34,495 bases of DNA from Helicobacteraceae bacterium (GTDB taxonomy: Bacteria; Campylobacterota; Campylobacteria; Campylobacterales; Sulfurimonadaceae), in contig JALVUF010000032.1 of NCBI GenBank assembly GCA_027023805.1, forward strand, positions 1-34,495. Reading direction: 5' to 3'. Numbering within the stretch: position 1 is the stretch's first letter; every line of letters begins with the position of its first letter. The notes under the pieces are model-generated. The model made no database searches. It was given only the letters and a program-made list of their open reading frames with translations, and was not told the origin of the DNA. The position numbers were made by a program, and so were the translations under genes. Below are positions 1,953-7,236 of the stretch, piece by piece.

Positions 1953-1971
1953 TTGACAAAAGTATTATAAT
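1953..1971 (+). promoter_or_regulatory. Candidate promoter elements for sqr
   Basis: TATAAT at 1966-1971 is a perfect -10 box about 85 bases before the sqr start. TTGACA lies upstream at 1953-1958, but its spacing of 7 bases is too short to act with this -10. Campylobacterota sigma-70 promoters often lack a -35 box, so the -10 alone may suffice. Two direct copies of TTGTGAT follow, near 1980 and 1990; their role is unknown. Confidence 0.4.
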
Positions 1972-2056
1972 TTATATTATTGTGATACTATTGTGATTAG
2001 ATTTAGTTATAGTTATGTGAGCATTCGTACAAGATTGTAAAATAAAAGGAGTAATT

Positions 2057-3526
2057 ATGGCAAGATTAGTTGTTCTAGGCGGTGGAGTCTCAGGGCATAC
2101 CGCTGCTACATTTGCGGCTAAGTGGCTTGGTTCTGCACATGAAGTAGTAGTCGTAACACCAAATTCACAGTGGAATTGGATTCCGTCAAATATTTGGGTC
2201 GGGGTAGGCGATATGAGTAAGCAAGATGTAGTGTTTGATCTTGCTCCGGTATATAGAAAAGGAAATATCACTTATAAGCAGGCAAAAGCCATTTCACTAA
2301 ACCCAGAGGGCAAAGAGGGTGCTGATACCCCTTTTGTTACTATCGAATACACAGGACAGGGCAAGGAGGGGCAGACTGAAGAGGTGACTTATGATTATGT
2401 CATCAATGCTACTGGACCAAAATTAAATTTTGCAGCAACTCCGGGGTTAGGTGATGCAAATGGATTAGGAGAATATACCGTTTCTGTTTGTACGGCAGAC
2501 CATGCAGTTCATGCAAGCCATGAGCTTGACAGATGCATAGAAAAAATGCAAAAAGGTGAACGTCAGAAATTTTTAATAGGTACGGGTCATGGTATGTGTA
2601 CTTGCCAGGGTGCCGCGTTTGAATATGCATTTAATATAGAGTCTAAGCTAAGAAAAGCCGGCGTTAGAGATATGGCTGATATCAAATGGATATCTAATGA
2701 AGCTTTTTTGGGTGACTTTGGTATGGGCGGTCTGCATATGAAAGTAAACGGTTATGTAGTTAGTTCAAAATTGTTTGCAGAATCTCTTTATGCCGAGCGT
2801 AATGTTGATTGGATCATCGGTGCACATGTAAATAAAGTTGAAAAAGGTAAAGCCCATTATGAGCTACTAGATGGCACGACAGGAGTTGAAGAGTTTGATT
2901 TTGCGATGCTTATTCCTCCTTTTGCAGGCGTTGGACTGAAAGCTTATGGTAAAGACGGTTCTGATATTACCGATCAACTGTTTGCACCAAACGGTCTGAT
3001 GAAAGTCGATGCAGATTATACGCCTAAGCCTTATAGCGAGTGGAAAGCAAGCGATTGGCCTAGAACTTATCAAAGCCCTGCATATAAAAATATTTTTGCA
3101 GTAGGAATTGCATTTAATCCACCACACCTTATATCTAAACCTGCAAAATCTCCAAACGGAACCCCGATTAATCCTACACCTCCACGTACGGGAATGCCGG
3201 CAGGCATTACAGGTAAAGCGGTTGCTCACAGCGTTTGTGATCTGATTACAAAGGGTGAGGGAGTACAGTTGCATGAAGCCTCAATGGCTGAAATGGGTGC
3301 TGCTTGTGTCGCTAGTGCAGGCAGAGGTTTGCTAACCGGAACTGCGGCAGCTATGACGGTTTATCCCGTCGTTCCTGATTTTGATAGATTTCCTGGAACG
3401 GGTCGCGATACTGATTATACGTTTGGTGAGATAGGTCTTGCGGGTCACTGGATAAAACAGGTGCTCCATTATCTATTTATATATAAAGCAAAACTAAAAA
3501 CCGGTTGGACATTAATACCGGAATAA
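2057..3526 (+). CDS. sqr: Sulfide:quinone oxidoreductase
   Basis: FAD flavoprotein of the inner membrane surface that oxidises sulfide to sulfur/polysulfide and passes electrons to quinone. The N-terminal Rossmann motif GGGVSG is at residues 8-13 and the second FAD-contact segment NATGP at 117-121. All three redox cysteines can be placed by comparison with the Acidithiobacillus enzyme. Cys145 (in SVCTADHA) corresponds to C128, Cys183 (in CTCQGAAFEYA) to C160, and Cys417 (in AACVASAG) to C356. An additional Cys181 makes a C-x-C pair. The C-terminus (about 462-489) is amphipathic and aromatic-rich, as expected for monotopic membrane attachment. Length 489; the SQR subtype is not assigned. The start is set by AAAAGGAG upstream. 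A 57-codon gene follows after 12 bases. Confidence 0.93.
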   Translation: MARLVVLGGGVSGHTAATFAAKWLGSAHEVVVVTPNSQWNWIPSNIWVGVGDMSKQDVVFDLAPVYRKGNITYKQAKAISLNPEGKEGADTPFVTIEYTGQGKEGQTEEVTYDYVINATGPKLNFAATPGLGDANGLGEYTVSVCTADHAVHASHELDRCIEKMQKGERQKFLIGTGHGMCTCQGAAFEYAFNIESKLRKAGVRDMADIKWISNEAFLGDFGMGGLHMKVNGYVVSSKLFAESLYAERNVDWIIGAHVNKVEKGKAHYELLDGTTGVEEFDFAMLIPPFAGVGLKAYGKDGSDITDQLFAPNGLMKVDADYTPKPYSEWKASDWPRTYQSPAYKNIFAVGIAFNPPHLISKPAKSPNGTPINPTPPRTGMPAGITGKAVAHSVCDLITKGEGVQLHEASMAEMGAACVASAGRGLLTGTAAAMTVYPVVPDFDRFPGTGRDTDYTFGEIGLAGHWIKQVLHYLFIYKAKLKTGWTLIPE

Positions 3527-3538
3527 AAAGGAGAAAAA

Positions 3539-3712
3539 ATGGAAAAGAAAGTAATACCGGAAGAGTTAAATTTTCAAAATAACGATAAAATGAATCTAAC
3601 TATGATTCCAAGCAGATATGCTCGTTTTATGAGAACATGTGTTATATGGCAGTTTATTCGTTTTGTAGTTTTAAACATTAAAATGCTTATAGTTGTTCGA
3701 AAAAGCCACTAG
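3539..3712 (+). CDS. Small membrane-type protein downstream of sqr
   Basis: A 57-codon reading frame from ATG at 3539 to TAG at 3710-3712. It begins 12 bases after the sqr stop and is preceded by a strong ribosome site, AAAAGGAG, at ideal spacing. The N-terminal third is charged (MEKKVIPEELNFQNNDK). Residues about 33-53 are hydrophobic (CVIWQFIRFVVLNIKMLIVV), enough for one membrane helix or an amphipathic membrane-lying helix, and the end is basic (RKSH). I do not recognise a named family. Placement and spacing suggest co-transcription with sqr and a job linked to it, such as membrane attachment or quinone access; this is inference. It is short enough to be missed by automatic calling. Confidence 0.72.
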   Translation: MEKKVIPEELNFQNNDKMNLTMIPSRYARFMRTCVIWQFIRFVVLNIKMLIVVRKSH

Positions 3713-3720
3713 TTTGCCCA

Positions 3721-3743
3721 GTATGTCGTAATTTGCGGCATAC
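3721..3743 (+). terminator. Hairpin after the sqr unit
   Basis: GTATGTCG and CGGCATAC pair over 8 bases (one G-T pair) around a 7-base loop, nine bases after the small gene. No T-run follows, so it may be a weak terminator or a transcript-end stabiliser. It lies directly before the possible starts of the kinase gene. Confidence 0.4.
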
Positions 3744-3749
3744 GGACGC

Positions 3750-6413
3750 TTGTTTGTATCCGTGCAATCTTTAACTACAAGTAAATCTTTTATTTCGATC
3801 TTCGAGGAAACTCAATCTCTTATCATATCTCAATGGATGGATTATCAAGAGATAAGTGATATTTTAAAGCGTCATGGCATCAAACGAGCTTTTTTTATTA
3901 ATACCTATGCCAACGGTATTTTTGAGTATTTGATCGGTGTGATTAAAGGGACGGTAGATATCGGCAATTGTCCCGTTATGGTGAAACTTTTATTTTATCT
4001 GAAAAACAATAATATCTCTTCACAAGAATTATTTTTAATATGTAGCCATTTTAAGCGCTCTATGATTGATATTGCGTATGATAAAGAGATAATCTCTAAA
4101 GAACTATTTGATGAAATAACATATATTTTTGATAAAAACTTTGCTTCTGTTTTAGCACAATATTCACAAACTATATATGAAAAAGATTTAGAAATCACTA
4201 AAAACGTTACCTTGCTTCAGCAATATATTTATGCCATCAATGAGAGTGCAATTGTCTCAAAGACGGATGAAAAAGGTATTATTACACATGTTAATGATAA
4301 ATTTTTACAGCTATGCGGTTTTGAGCAAAGTGAGTTGATAGGTTTTTCGCATCGCGTTATCAGAGACCCTCAGATGCCGTCATCATTTTTTCAAGATTTA
4401 TGGCAAAATCTGCATCAAGGAAAAGTTTTTCGTGGAACTATTAAAAACAGAAAAAAAAATGGAGAATATTTTTATATAGATACAACTATTTTGCCGATAC
4501 AAAACCCATTTACCGAAAGACGAGAATATATAGGCGTAGGCTATGACGTGACAAAACTAATTGATGCTAAAGTAAAAGCTATCGATGCAGACAGGGCAAA
4601 GGATTATTTTTTATCTAATATAAGCCATGAGATACGGACACCGTTAAATGCTATTTTAGGATTTGTGCAAATTTTAAAAGATGAAATAGTAGCTAAGAGG
4701 TATAAGCACTATTTCGATATTATAGACGATAGCGGGAGAAATTTATTAAATCTTATTAATGATATCTTAGATTTTTCAAAATTAAAGAGCGGAACTTTTA
4801 CAGTTGAGAGACAAGTTTTTAATTTTGAAGAGATATTATCTAGAACTATTGAGCCTTTTGTGATGCTGATAAAGGATAAACATATTAGGTTTATGAACTA
4901 TACCGATCCGCTAATGCCATCAAAAATATTAAGTGATCCGCTTAGAATTCAACAGATTGTGTCAAATTTTATTAGCAATGCAATTAAATTCACATCACAA
5001 AACGGGCGCATAGATATAGAGTCAAAGATTACGCAAGACAATATACTAATGGTGAGCGTTAAAGATACCGGTATCGGGATTGACAAAAAAGATATAGAGG
5101 GTATTTTTAAGCCTTTTTCTCAAGTTTATGGTAATGGAGCTGTTTACGGGGGCACGGGTCTTGGTTTGGCTATTTGCAAGCAATTAGCTACTTTGCTAGG
5201 AGGCGATATAGAGTTATCGTCAGAGTTGTCTTTGGGAAGTAGATTTACTCTTTTAATACCGGTGCAGATTATAGATAAAAAACCAACACTGCTAGAGTGT
5301 AAACTTTTAAAATCAAAAATAATCATCTTTTATGCCGTTGACACAACTGATCTGAAAAAGCTGGATGTTATTTCATTATATCTTAAACAGATGGGCTTAA
5401 AGCTACGTATTGTGCGCTCATTGGATAATATCGATTATGATTTGCTGTATTTTTTTGATGAAGATGTGAGTGATACGCTCAGAGATGCTGTTATAGCAAA
5501 CGATAAGCCATCTATATGTATATCTGATATTTTTCAGAGTAAAACTACAACATTGCCCAATACAAGATATTTAGCATATCCGCTTTATCTGTCTAAAGTA
5601 AGAGAAAGTCTTCTTGATGTCTTTGATTTACAAAGAGAGCGCGATATAATGTTGCTTAGTCAAAAACAGGAGATAAAATATTTTGATGCTTCGGTGTTGG
5701 TAGCAGAAGACAATGAGGCAAATCAGGAACTCATAGGCATGTTACTGTCTAAACACGGCATCTCTTATGATATAGCGCCAGATGGAAAAAAGGCTGTTGA
5801 GCTTTATAAGCGAAAGATATATGATCTGATATTTATGGATGAACAGATGCCGATTTTAAACGGTTCTGATGCGGTCAAAGAGATTTTAAAGATTCAAAAG
5901 CAATTTCATTTTAAACATATTCCAATTGTGGCATTAACTGCAAATATCATAAAAAGTTCAAATATTACGATACTTGAATCCAGCTGCGATGAATTTTTAG
6001 GCAAACCTATAGATATTCGTAAGCTAGAAGATATTTTAATTAGATATTTACCGCAAAAAACAACCGGTTGTAATATGCAGACTTTGCAAGAAACTTTGCA
6101 GCTTAACCAGGAGCAGATTAAGATGCTTTTAAAGCTTTATTTTACAAAAGCCGATATGTTAATATCCAAACTGCCTCAATTGGTAAAAAATGTAAATTAT
6201 ACAAAACTTGCTAAAAACATGCATTCCATAAAAGGTTCCAGCGCAAATTTTAGATTTAAAAAAATACAAAATATATCCAGTGATATAGAACAAGCGGCAA
6301 ATATTCAAAACAAAGAGTTTGATTATGAAAATGCTCTTAGACAATTACAATGCGAGTATGCAAGCATTAAAAAGCAATATGGACTTTGCTTAGATGATGA
6401 TTATTCTATATAA
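3750..6413 (+). CDS. Hybrid histidine kinase with PAS, receiver and Hpt domains
   Basis: Multi-domain signalling kinase with no obvious transmembrane helix. In order (numbering from a TTG start): an all-helical N-terminal region of unknown type (about 12-150); a PAS domain (about 160-270, with ...RDPQMPSS and YDVTKL); a HisKA helix pair with phospho-acceptor His293 (SHEIRTPLN); and an ATPase domain with N-box Asn406/Asn410, DTGIGI at 439-444 and GGTGLGL at 467-473. Next comes a receiver-like segment without recognisable catalytic residues (about 520-630), then a full receiver with Asp697, Thr730 and Lys752, and an Hpt domain with His825 (MHSIKGSS). The start is uncertain: TTG 3750, GTG 3762 or ATG 3837. 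None has a convincing ribosome site, and the ATG would cut into the helical N-terminal region. It converges on, and overlaps, the response regulator gene. Confidence 0.9.
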   Translation: MFVSVQSLTTSKSFISIFEETQSLIISQWMDYQEISDILKRHGIKRAFFINTYANGIFEYLIGVIKGTVDIGNCPVMVKLLFYLKNNNISSQELFLICSHFKRSMIDIAYDKEIISKELFDEITYIFDKNFASVLAQYSQTIYEKDLEITKNVTLLQQYIYAINESAIVSKTDEKGIITHVNDKFLQLCGFEQSELIGFSHRVIRDPQMPSSFFQDLWQNLHQGKVFRGTIKNRKKNGEYFYIDTTILPIQNPFTERREYIGVGYDVTKLIDAKVKAIDADRAKDYFLSNISHEIRTPLNAILGFVQILKDEIVAKRYKHYFDIIDDSGRNLLNLINDILDFSKLKSGTFTVERQVFNFEEILSRTIEPFVMLIKDKHIRFMNYTDPLMPSKILSDPLRIQQIVSNFISNAIKFTSQNGRIDIESKITQDNILMVSVKDTGIGIDKKDIEGIFKPFSQVYGNGAVYGGTGLGLAICKQLATLLGGDIELSSELSLGSRFTLLIPVQIIDKKPTLLECKLLKSKIIIFYAVDTTDLKKLDVISLYLKQMGLKLRIVRSLDNIDYDLLYFFDEDVSDTLRDAVIANDKPSICISDIFQSKTTTLPNTRYLAYPLYLSKVRESLLDVFDLQRERDIMLLSQKQEIKYFDASVLVAEDNEANQELIGMLLSKHGISYDIAPDGKKAVELYKRKIYDLIFMDEQMPILNGSDAVKEILKIQKQFHFKHIPIVALTANIIKSSNITILESSCDEFLGKPIDIRKLEDILIRYLPQKTTGCNMQTLQETLQLNQEQIKMLLKLYFTKADMLISKLPQLVKNVNYTKLAKNMHSIKGSSANFRFKKIQNISSDIEQAANIQNKEFDYENALRQLQCEYASIKKQYGLCLDDDYSI

Positions 6414-7144
6414 TATCCTGTACCGGAAACATTTTTAATGATATCGGTGGGTAATTTATTGCGTATTCTCCAAACAAGCGTTCGTACGCTGTTTTGCGTG
6501 GCATTATCTTCGTCCCAGATATATTGTATGATTTGATCAAAACTAACCACAAGGCCAATATGTGCTACTAAAAGCTTTATAAATGCATTTTCTTTTTTAG
6601 TTAGTCTAATCTTTTTGTTGTTATAAAAGGTTTCACAAACATTAAGATCAAAACAATATCCATCTGCAAATTCGATATTTGGCTGATTGTGATTATTGTG
6701 GTATAGTAATTTTTCAAGATTTAATTTTTCCTGTTTTAACGCACTAATACTGGCTTCTTGTTGCTTTTCGTGATTGTATTTATAAAGAGCCATCTGCAAG
6801 GTTGCGTGAAGCGAATTTGGATCAAATGGCTTTAATATGTATCCATAAGGTTCAGTTTTACTGGCATCTTTAATAATATGGTCATCAGAGTGTGATGTCA
6901 GATATATAAAAGGCAGATGATATTTTTCACGTATTAGGTTTGCTAATTCTATACCGTCTGCGCTCTCTTGAAGAGCTATATCGATGATAATAATATCGGG
7001 TGAGTAAACCTTAATCTTATTGATGGCACTTAGCATGTTATCGGTTGCCGCTACAACATCATAGCCATTTTTTCGTAAGGAAATTTCTAAGTTTAAAGCA
7101 CTTACCTCATCATCTTCAACTATTAAAATTCTATATTTTTTCAT
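6401..7144 (-). CDS. Response regulator with winged-helix output domain
   Basis: 247-residue DNA-binding response regulator. The receiver domain covers about residues 1-120, with the acidic pocket Glu10-Asp11-Asp12, phospho-acceptor Asp55, the LTS switch residues and the KPF lysine. A helical linker (about 120-150) leads to a C-terminal OmpR-type winged helix, in which RLTKKENAFIKLL is the typical first part and SVRTLVWRIRNKL the recognition helix. ATG at 7144 is preferred to the in-frame TTG 15 bases upstream because it gives the normal receiver N-terminus, with GAG eight to ten bases ahead. The last 13 bases overlap the end of the convergent hybrid kinase gene. It is the natural phosphate acceptor for the kinase's Hpt domain (inference). 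Its own gene also seems separately promoted. Confidence 0.9.
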   Translation of the reverse strand: MKKYRILIVEDDEVSALNLEISLRKNGYDVVAATDNMLSAINKIKVYSPDIIIIDIALQESADGIELANLIREKYHLPFIYLTSHSDDHIIKDASKTEPYGYILKPFDPNSLHATLQMALYKYNHEKQQEASISALKQEKLNLEKLLYHNNHNQPNIEFADGYCFDLNVCETFYNNKKIRLTKKENAFIKLLVAHIGLVVSFDQIIQYIWDEDNATQNSVRTLVWRIRNKLPTDIIKNVSGTGYYIE

Positions 7145-7236
7145 CTTGTTATCTCGCAATTGTTTAAGCCTTGTGCATCAAAGATAAAGCTACTAGATTC
7201 TCTTAACTTATGTAATAAAATTGTGATGTCTGAATA

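Follow-up and report, generated by a model that had tools for sequence, protein, structure and literature searches.

Electrons from sulfide enter respiration and anoxygenic photosynthesis through sulfide:quinone oxidoreductase (SQR). Some respiratory enzymes are known to have small accessory subunits, an example of which is CydX, the small single-helix accessory subunit of cytochrome bd. In the accessible parts of the literature, SQR itself is treated as the product of one gene, a monotopic enzyme whose C-terminal helices belong to its own chain. Type I SQRs, whose structures were solved for Aquifex aeolicus (PDB: 3hyv) and Acidithiobacillus ferrooxidans (PDB: 3sz0, 3t31), are single chains characterized by a second amphipathic C-terminal helix. 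According to the accessible sections of one study, type III SqrC from which one or two C-terminal helices have been removed is cytoplasmic and inactive; type VI SQR deprived of its only C-terminal helix is still membrane-bound and active (PMC9666304). Type IV SQR is described, in the portions available of two other reports, as conserved in all sequenced Sulfurimonas, and CT0117 of Chlorobaculum tepidum and Alvin_2145 of Allochromatium vinosum belong to the same type, A. vinosum possessing a type VI enzyme in addition (PMC4584964, PMC11267869).

The window (the whole stretch of 34,495 nucleotides that was analysed) encodes an SQR that is directly followed by a gene for a 57-residue protein, which we call the companion. 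The features of the locus are:

1953–1980, plus strand: promoter-like site TTGACA-16-TATTAT upstream of sqr, matching 11 of 12 consensus positions; weak, as the region has fewer matches than its shuffles
2057–3526, plus strand: sqr, sulfide:quinone oxidoreductase, 489 amino acids; phmmer match to Aquifex SQR 3hyv with an E-value of 7.7e-35
3437–3490, plus strand: C-terminal helix 1 of SQR, residues 461–478, from the AlphaFold model
3528–3533, plus strand: AAGGAG, the Shine-Dalgarno site for the companion, read from the sequence, five bases 5' of the ATG
3539–3712, plus strand: companion gene, 57 amino acids, from ATG at 3539 to TAG ending at 3712, directly 3' of sqr
3614–3637, plus strand: companion helix 1, residues 26–33, containing Arg32, in both AlphaFold models
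3641–3706, plus strand: companion helix 2, residues 35–56, with the core WQFIRFVVLNIKMLIVVRKS, in both AlphaFold models
3721–3743, plus strand: 10-pair hairpin after the companion; the segment 3710–3765 folds with -16.6 kcal/mol, z -1.78, and 8 of 200 shuffles are as good

The companion frame 3539–3712 on the plus strand is translated as MEKKVIPEELNFQNNDKMNLTMIPSRYARFMRTCVIWQFIRFVVLNIKMLIVVRKSH, and the host genome contains one copy of it. Twelve bases separate the sqr stop codon TAA (3524–3526) from the companion ATG, so that the frame and its near-ideal ribosome-binding site lie exactly where the first-pass annotation had put them. The description of the protein as having a charged head, a hydrophobic segment, and a basic tail is also fair, as the last 36 residues have a net charge of +7 and the part preceding them of -1. 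The label "unannotated" holds in part: the companion has no match in Pfam, NCBIfam, or the PDB, but RefSeq plasmid records annotate three of its homologues as "hypothetical protein". In the scan of 40 family members against Pfam and NCBIfam, no family was matched by more than two members, with a best E-value of 0.0078, and neither phmmer with the peptide nor a profile search of the family returned a PDB match up to an E-value of 10. The hairpin at 3721–3743 is not followed by a run of T and was missed by the terminator scan; it is a possible end of the two-gene unit.

The window SQR has the SQR fold over its whole chain. VIA-align superimposes approximately 400 residues onto the solved type I SQRs with Z-scores of 40.3–41.5; related flavoenzymes and the human enzyme come next, at about Z 32. 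The sequence also matches those of Acidithiobacillus SQRs. Three cysteines in the profile of window-type SQRs, located in the motifs SVCTADHA, CTCQGAAFEY, and AACVASAG, align with those of 3hyv (SICTAEHA, SCFGPAYEF, and AICIADFG), and we take them to be the catalytic redox and FAD cysteines. The N-terminus, MARLVVLGGGVSGH, has the FAD-binding motif at its very start and no export signal. The enzyme is probably a type IV SQR (SqrD), an assignment made from distribution and length, because the described distribution of this type (green sulfur bacteria, Chromatiaceae, and all Sulfurimonas) fits. The accessible text on CT0117 and Alvin_2145 does not mention a companion (PMC4584964, PMC11267869). 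The type VI enzyme SqrF of Thiocapsa roseopersicina resembles the window SQR in having one C-terminal helix only, but it has a mass of approximately 44 kDa, so the length of 489 residues argues against type VI; a companion gene is not mentioned for SqrF in the accessible sections (PMC9666304).

The window SQR shares its fold, cysteines, and first C-terminal helix with the type I enzymes, but it stops earlier. Its chain ends with the residues IPE (487–489) right after helix 1, the solved type I SQRs continue for approximately 25 residues beyond this point, and the second amphipathic helix is thus missing. The same truncation is present in all 85 distinct companion-type SQRs examined, which stop right after the first C-terminal helix. 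Their tails, selected by the motif GLAGHW at their start and not by length, measure 30 residues from this motif in 83 sequences and 29 in two, and end with IPE in 67 and IPD in seven. We searched 274 genomes from the class of G337, which we take to be Gammaproteobacteria, found an SQR-family match in 80 of them, and read the best 30 loci. Six of these 30 SQRs have a short C-terminus, and a companion follows every one of the six; two of these loci (L179 and L184) are not part of the companion profile, and the match to the companion of L184 is weak (E-value 2e-5). None of the other 24 loci has a companion. The second helix, with the pattern SEPxYEKYxLKxLGI, is visible in 22, and the contigs of the remaining two (L194 and L205) end before the second-helix region. 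As L194, L205, and L208 lack downstream sequence, 21 loci with the second helix and at least 1 kb downstream are informative. Five SQR relatives with 24–30% identity, picked from 33 plasmid records with a match, likewise extend past helix 1 and are without a companion.

A phylogenetic tree of 67 SQRs, hand-picked from the loci, places 52 companion SQRs and 15 others on opposite sides of a branch with 100/100 support. The complementarity of helix and companion and the phylogeny thus represent one deep split, and therefore few independent events. The most divergent companions go with the most divergent gammaproteobacterial companion SQRs (L179–L181 and L184, 42–46% identity). The clade of companion SQRs appears to include the enzymes of green sulfur bacteria and most of those of sulfur-oxidising Campylobacterota, and the position of Gallionellaceae and Chromatiaceae SQRs next to two Campylobacterota SQRs in the tree suggests that the SQR–companion pair moved between phyla as a unit. 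The companion has no detectable sequence homology to helix 2 of type I SQRs (hhalign E-value 0.52), nor did hhalign detect homology to the tail of the window-type SQR itself. Because homology to and superposition with type I helix 2 are lacking, we propose a functional replacement and not a piece split off from SQR.

The companion is found well beyond the window. Its homologues are present in 69 of 100 relatives, the genome of the window included, at an E-value of 0.01 or better, and none of the 69 contains an internal stop. The host genome belongs to Campylobacterota, and the closest homologues in the named collection come from records of Sulfurimonas, Sulfurovum, Sulfuricurvum, and Helicobacteraceae. 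Scanning the species genomes of this collection with a pattern yielded 72 companion loci, which include those of two Gallionellaceae, one Cytophagales, one Spirochaetaceae, and two Nautiliaceae metagenome-assembled genomes. A site resembling Shine-Dalgarno precedes 119 of 121 homologues, a proportion biased upward since the starts were chosen partly by this criterion. The Nei-Gojobori dN/dS ratio of the companion against three copies from the same genus is 0.09–0.12, with dS values of 1.1–1.5 that are near saturation; a ratio below one was the check proposed by the first-pass annotation. Third codon positions differ most (177k differences, versus 125k and 89k at the other two). Among 1042 distant pairs the median dN/dS is 0.35 and 45 pairs reach at least 1, but values at this distance are unreliable, and the five highest all include one of the divergent copies L103, L108, or L110.

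Judged from these comparisons, the frame 3539–3712 is a genuine gene, conserved and subject to purifying selection. We give almost no credence to a spurious frame that owes its conservation to the DNA or RNA rather than to the encoded protein. The hairpin just 3' of the companion would fit such an origin, as would the stop flags in the Bacteroidota sample (nine rows), in Spirochaetota (one row), and in the class of G101 (one row); of the nine flagged Bacteroidota rows, the one that was read (G802, locus L136) is intact, and its match ran past the normal end. The low dN/dS against same-genus copies, the excess of third-position differences, and the intact frames in all 69 relatives speak against a spurious frame.

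The pairing of the companion with SQR is nearly invariant. In Campylobacterota, in green sulfur bacteria and elsewhere in Bacteroidota, and in Spirochaetota, companion homologues immediately follow an SQR gene of the same kind, as they do in Gallionellaceae, on a Chromatiaceae plasmid, and on an alphaproteobacterial plasmid. A companion is present in 121 of 122 collected loci, which include some genomes twice and yield 110 distinct peptides, and 116 of the loci have an SQR upstream on the same strand. In these 116 loci the two genes are 6–202 bases apart, with a median of 27, and none of them contains a fusion or overlap. When the same 100 relatives were searched for SQR, 71 matched at an E-value of 1e-60 or better; 68 genomes have both genes, 28 have neither, and four are discordant. 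In three of the discordant genomes (G034, G019, and G040) the SQR is cut by a contig end, and in the fourth (G067) a divergent companion directly after sqr was found by eye and with an HMM (E-value 0.06). Two genomes (G001 and G063) have two SQRs each, and every one of these is followed by its own companion. On the plasmids of Sulfurovum mangrovi, Candidatus Thiodictyon syntrophicum, and Marivivens sp., the SQRs are 60–78% identical to that of the window, and the gene next to SQR is the companion in all three.

The Bacteroidota sample, comprising 395 genomes from the phylum of G104 (labelled Lutibacter), contains the companion in 98 genomes and SQR in 97, all of which are among the 98. Going by gene positions, 105 of the 106 SQRs are followed by an adjacent companion, and the only one that is not is situated 330 bases away from the end of its contig. 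Conversely, 105 of the 111 companions are next to an SQR; among the six unpaired ones, of which that of G582 was read at its locus (L144), two start no more than 7 bases from the edge of a contig, at its beginning. The FMO antenna protein is a marker of green sulfur bacteria, and because a Pfam search found it in 21 of 30 tested companion-bearing genomes of the sample, many of these genomes belong to green sulfur bacteria. Companion matches were found in 7 of 149 genomes of Spirochaetota (the phylum of G103, according to its label) and in 6 of 321 of the class of the Gallionellaceae genome G101, of which that in G383 is weak and contains a stop. In 34 of the 36 loci from L135 to L170, an SQR lies upstream on the same strand. 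The weak matches in G383 (L134, E-value 5e-4) and G909 (L170, E-value 1e-5) are doubtful, both being stop-flagged and L170 being without SQR, and a companion-like match without SQR in G770 is doubtful as well. The first-pass annotation had named a lack of conserved homologues beside sqr, or disrupted frames there, as refuting its idea. The outcome is the opposite, as the adjacency is almost invariant in every group sampled and the selection is purifying, and the idea that the small protein is a partner of SQR therefore has good support.

The joined AlphaFold model of SQR and the companion, computed from 79 of 108 prepared alignment rows, has a good SQR fold. The companion forms the same helices, residues 26–33 and 35–56, in the joined model and when folded alone, and its pLDDT in the joined model is therefore silent on docking. 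A two-residue strand element at model residues 517–518 is present in the joined model only. When the joined model is aligned to the type I SQRs, the aligned region extends no further than residue 493 and the companion starts at 495, so the companion helix is not shown at the position of helix 2 in the type I enzymes. No fold from the PDB was listed for the companion portion of the model; this does not argue for a new fold. The best 18-residue stretch of the hydrophobic segment has a mean hydrophobicity of 0.52 and a hydrophobic moment of 0.44. Gln38 is invariant in the 110 distinct companion sequences; Pro24 and Arg32 are conserved in 109 each, Phe42 in 107, Arg41 in 106, Lys48 in 105, and Asn46 and His57 in 102 each, and the C-terminal end is a conserved KSH. 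Because the conserved Gln38, Arg41, Asn46, and Lys48 sit inside the hydrophobic segment, the helix looks amphipathic, rather than a clean transmembrane span.

From the pairing and the missing helix we infer, with a probability of roughly 0.6, that the companion is a small SQR subunit doing the job of the absent membrane helix, its binding to SQR, its location, and its role in activity being part of this interpretation. SQR and the companion would be made from one two-gene unit, and residues 26–56 of the companion would form a separate amphipathic helical segment at the membrane beside the C-terminus of SQR. There the companion would take over the work of the second C-terminal helix, holding the monotopic SQR on the membrane, and would close off or shape the quinone entrance of the enzyme. 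The strict complementarity with the missing second helix lends indirect support to the earlier suggestion that the small protein anchors SQR, and conserved polar residues within the helix are expected of an amphipathic helix that contacts a protein. Counted against a subunit are orphan companions without a neighbouring SQR (L071 and L104). Furthermore, a lost helix does not necessarily have to be replaced, because type VI SQR tolerates such a loss in the accessible account (PMC9666304).

The pairing data also fit an assembly or insertion factor that delivers SQR to or across the membrane, or loads FAD or quinone, and is not a stoichiometric subunit. The FAD-binding motif at the start of an SQR without an export signal and the basic C-terminal half of the companion would suit such a factor, which we nevertheless regard as unlikely, since a general factor does not predict the exact complementarity with the missing helix, and SQRs with the second helix do without the companion. 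Gln38, Arg41, Asn46, Lys48, and the KSH end resemble an interaction surface and not a plain anchor, which would be in keeping with a docking or exchange subunit coupling SQR to quinone, polysulfide, or a downstream respiratory complex; help with quinone or polysulfide exchange was among the suggestions of the first-pass annotation. This role is quite unlikely, as the genes after the pair differ among the three annotated plasmid records and no third conserved neighbour is present in them. An independent small protein, for example a toxin or regulator, that is co-transcribed with sqr by chance would be small, basic, and hydrophobic as the companion is, and orphan copies do lie next to a MerR-like regulator in two genomes; the near-perfect co-occurrence and adjacency in several phyla and the lack of any Pfam or NCBIfam family match make such a coincidence highly improbable.

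A subunit that stands in for the missing membrane helix of SQR would resemble CydX in being very small, associated with the membrane, and encoded immediately behind its enzyme. It would differ from CydX in having no family match and in having as its partner a monotopic flavoenzyme that is usually treated as single-gene. Such an accessory subunit of SQR would be new: a full-text literature search, with most subscription papers outside its scope, found no description of an SQR companion of this kind. We consider the chances about even that the whole SQR clade is a two-gene enzyme in which an unrelated subunit of approximately 55 residues, which took over the role of the missing helix before the clade spread through several phyla, sets membrane binding and quinone access. 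If this is true, the expression of such SQRs from a single gene would give a partly defective enzyme. If the clade needs the second gene, kinetics measured on such SQRs from single genes may be incomplete, the subunit is missing from annotations of sulfide oxidation, and the SQR–companion pair is a natural experiment on the role of the second membrane helix.

Several observations concern individual copies. The orphan paralogues, which begin with MGSEQKYFSDN, are located at 3995–4153 of L071 and 2117–2278 (minus strand) of L104, with no SQR beside them. They adjoin a divergent MerR-like regulator in a Sulfuricurvum metagenome-assembled genome and in G049, the other companion copy of which adjoins SQR; the orphan companion is perhaps a stand-alone or regulated version. 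The second SQR copies of G063 and G001 (L106 and L107) are 65–67% identical, and the C-terminal half of their companions has strongly diverged, with the loss of the motif RF..N.KM...KSH; this duplicate pair is possibly changing function. The Lutibacter-labelled metagenome-assembled genome G104 (L048/L123 and L129) contains two SQR–companion pairs with SQRs 78% and 59% identical to that of the window, and the 78% pair is Campylobacterota-like, for which contamination or transfer is possible. In the SQR tree, the Gallionellaceae and Chromatiaceae sequences L097, L098, L114, L116, L172, L182, and L183 group with two Campylobacterota SQRs. In the window, the pair is followed at 3750–6413 by the gene of a large hybrid histidine kinase (PAS, HisKA, HATPase, receiver, and Hpt domains), whose first start codon is TTG, and a convergent response regulator at 6401–7159 on the minus strand faces it.
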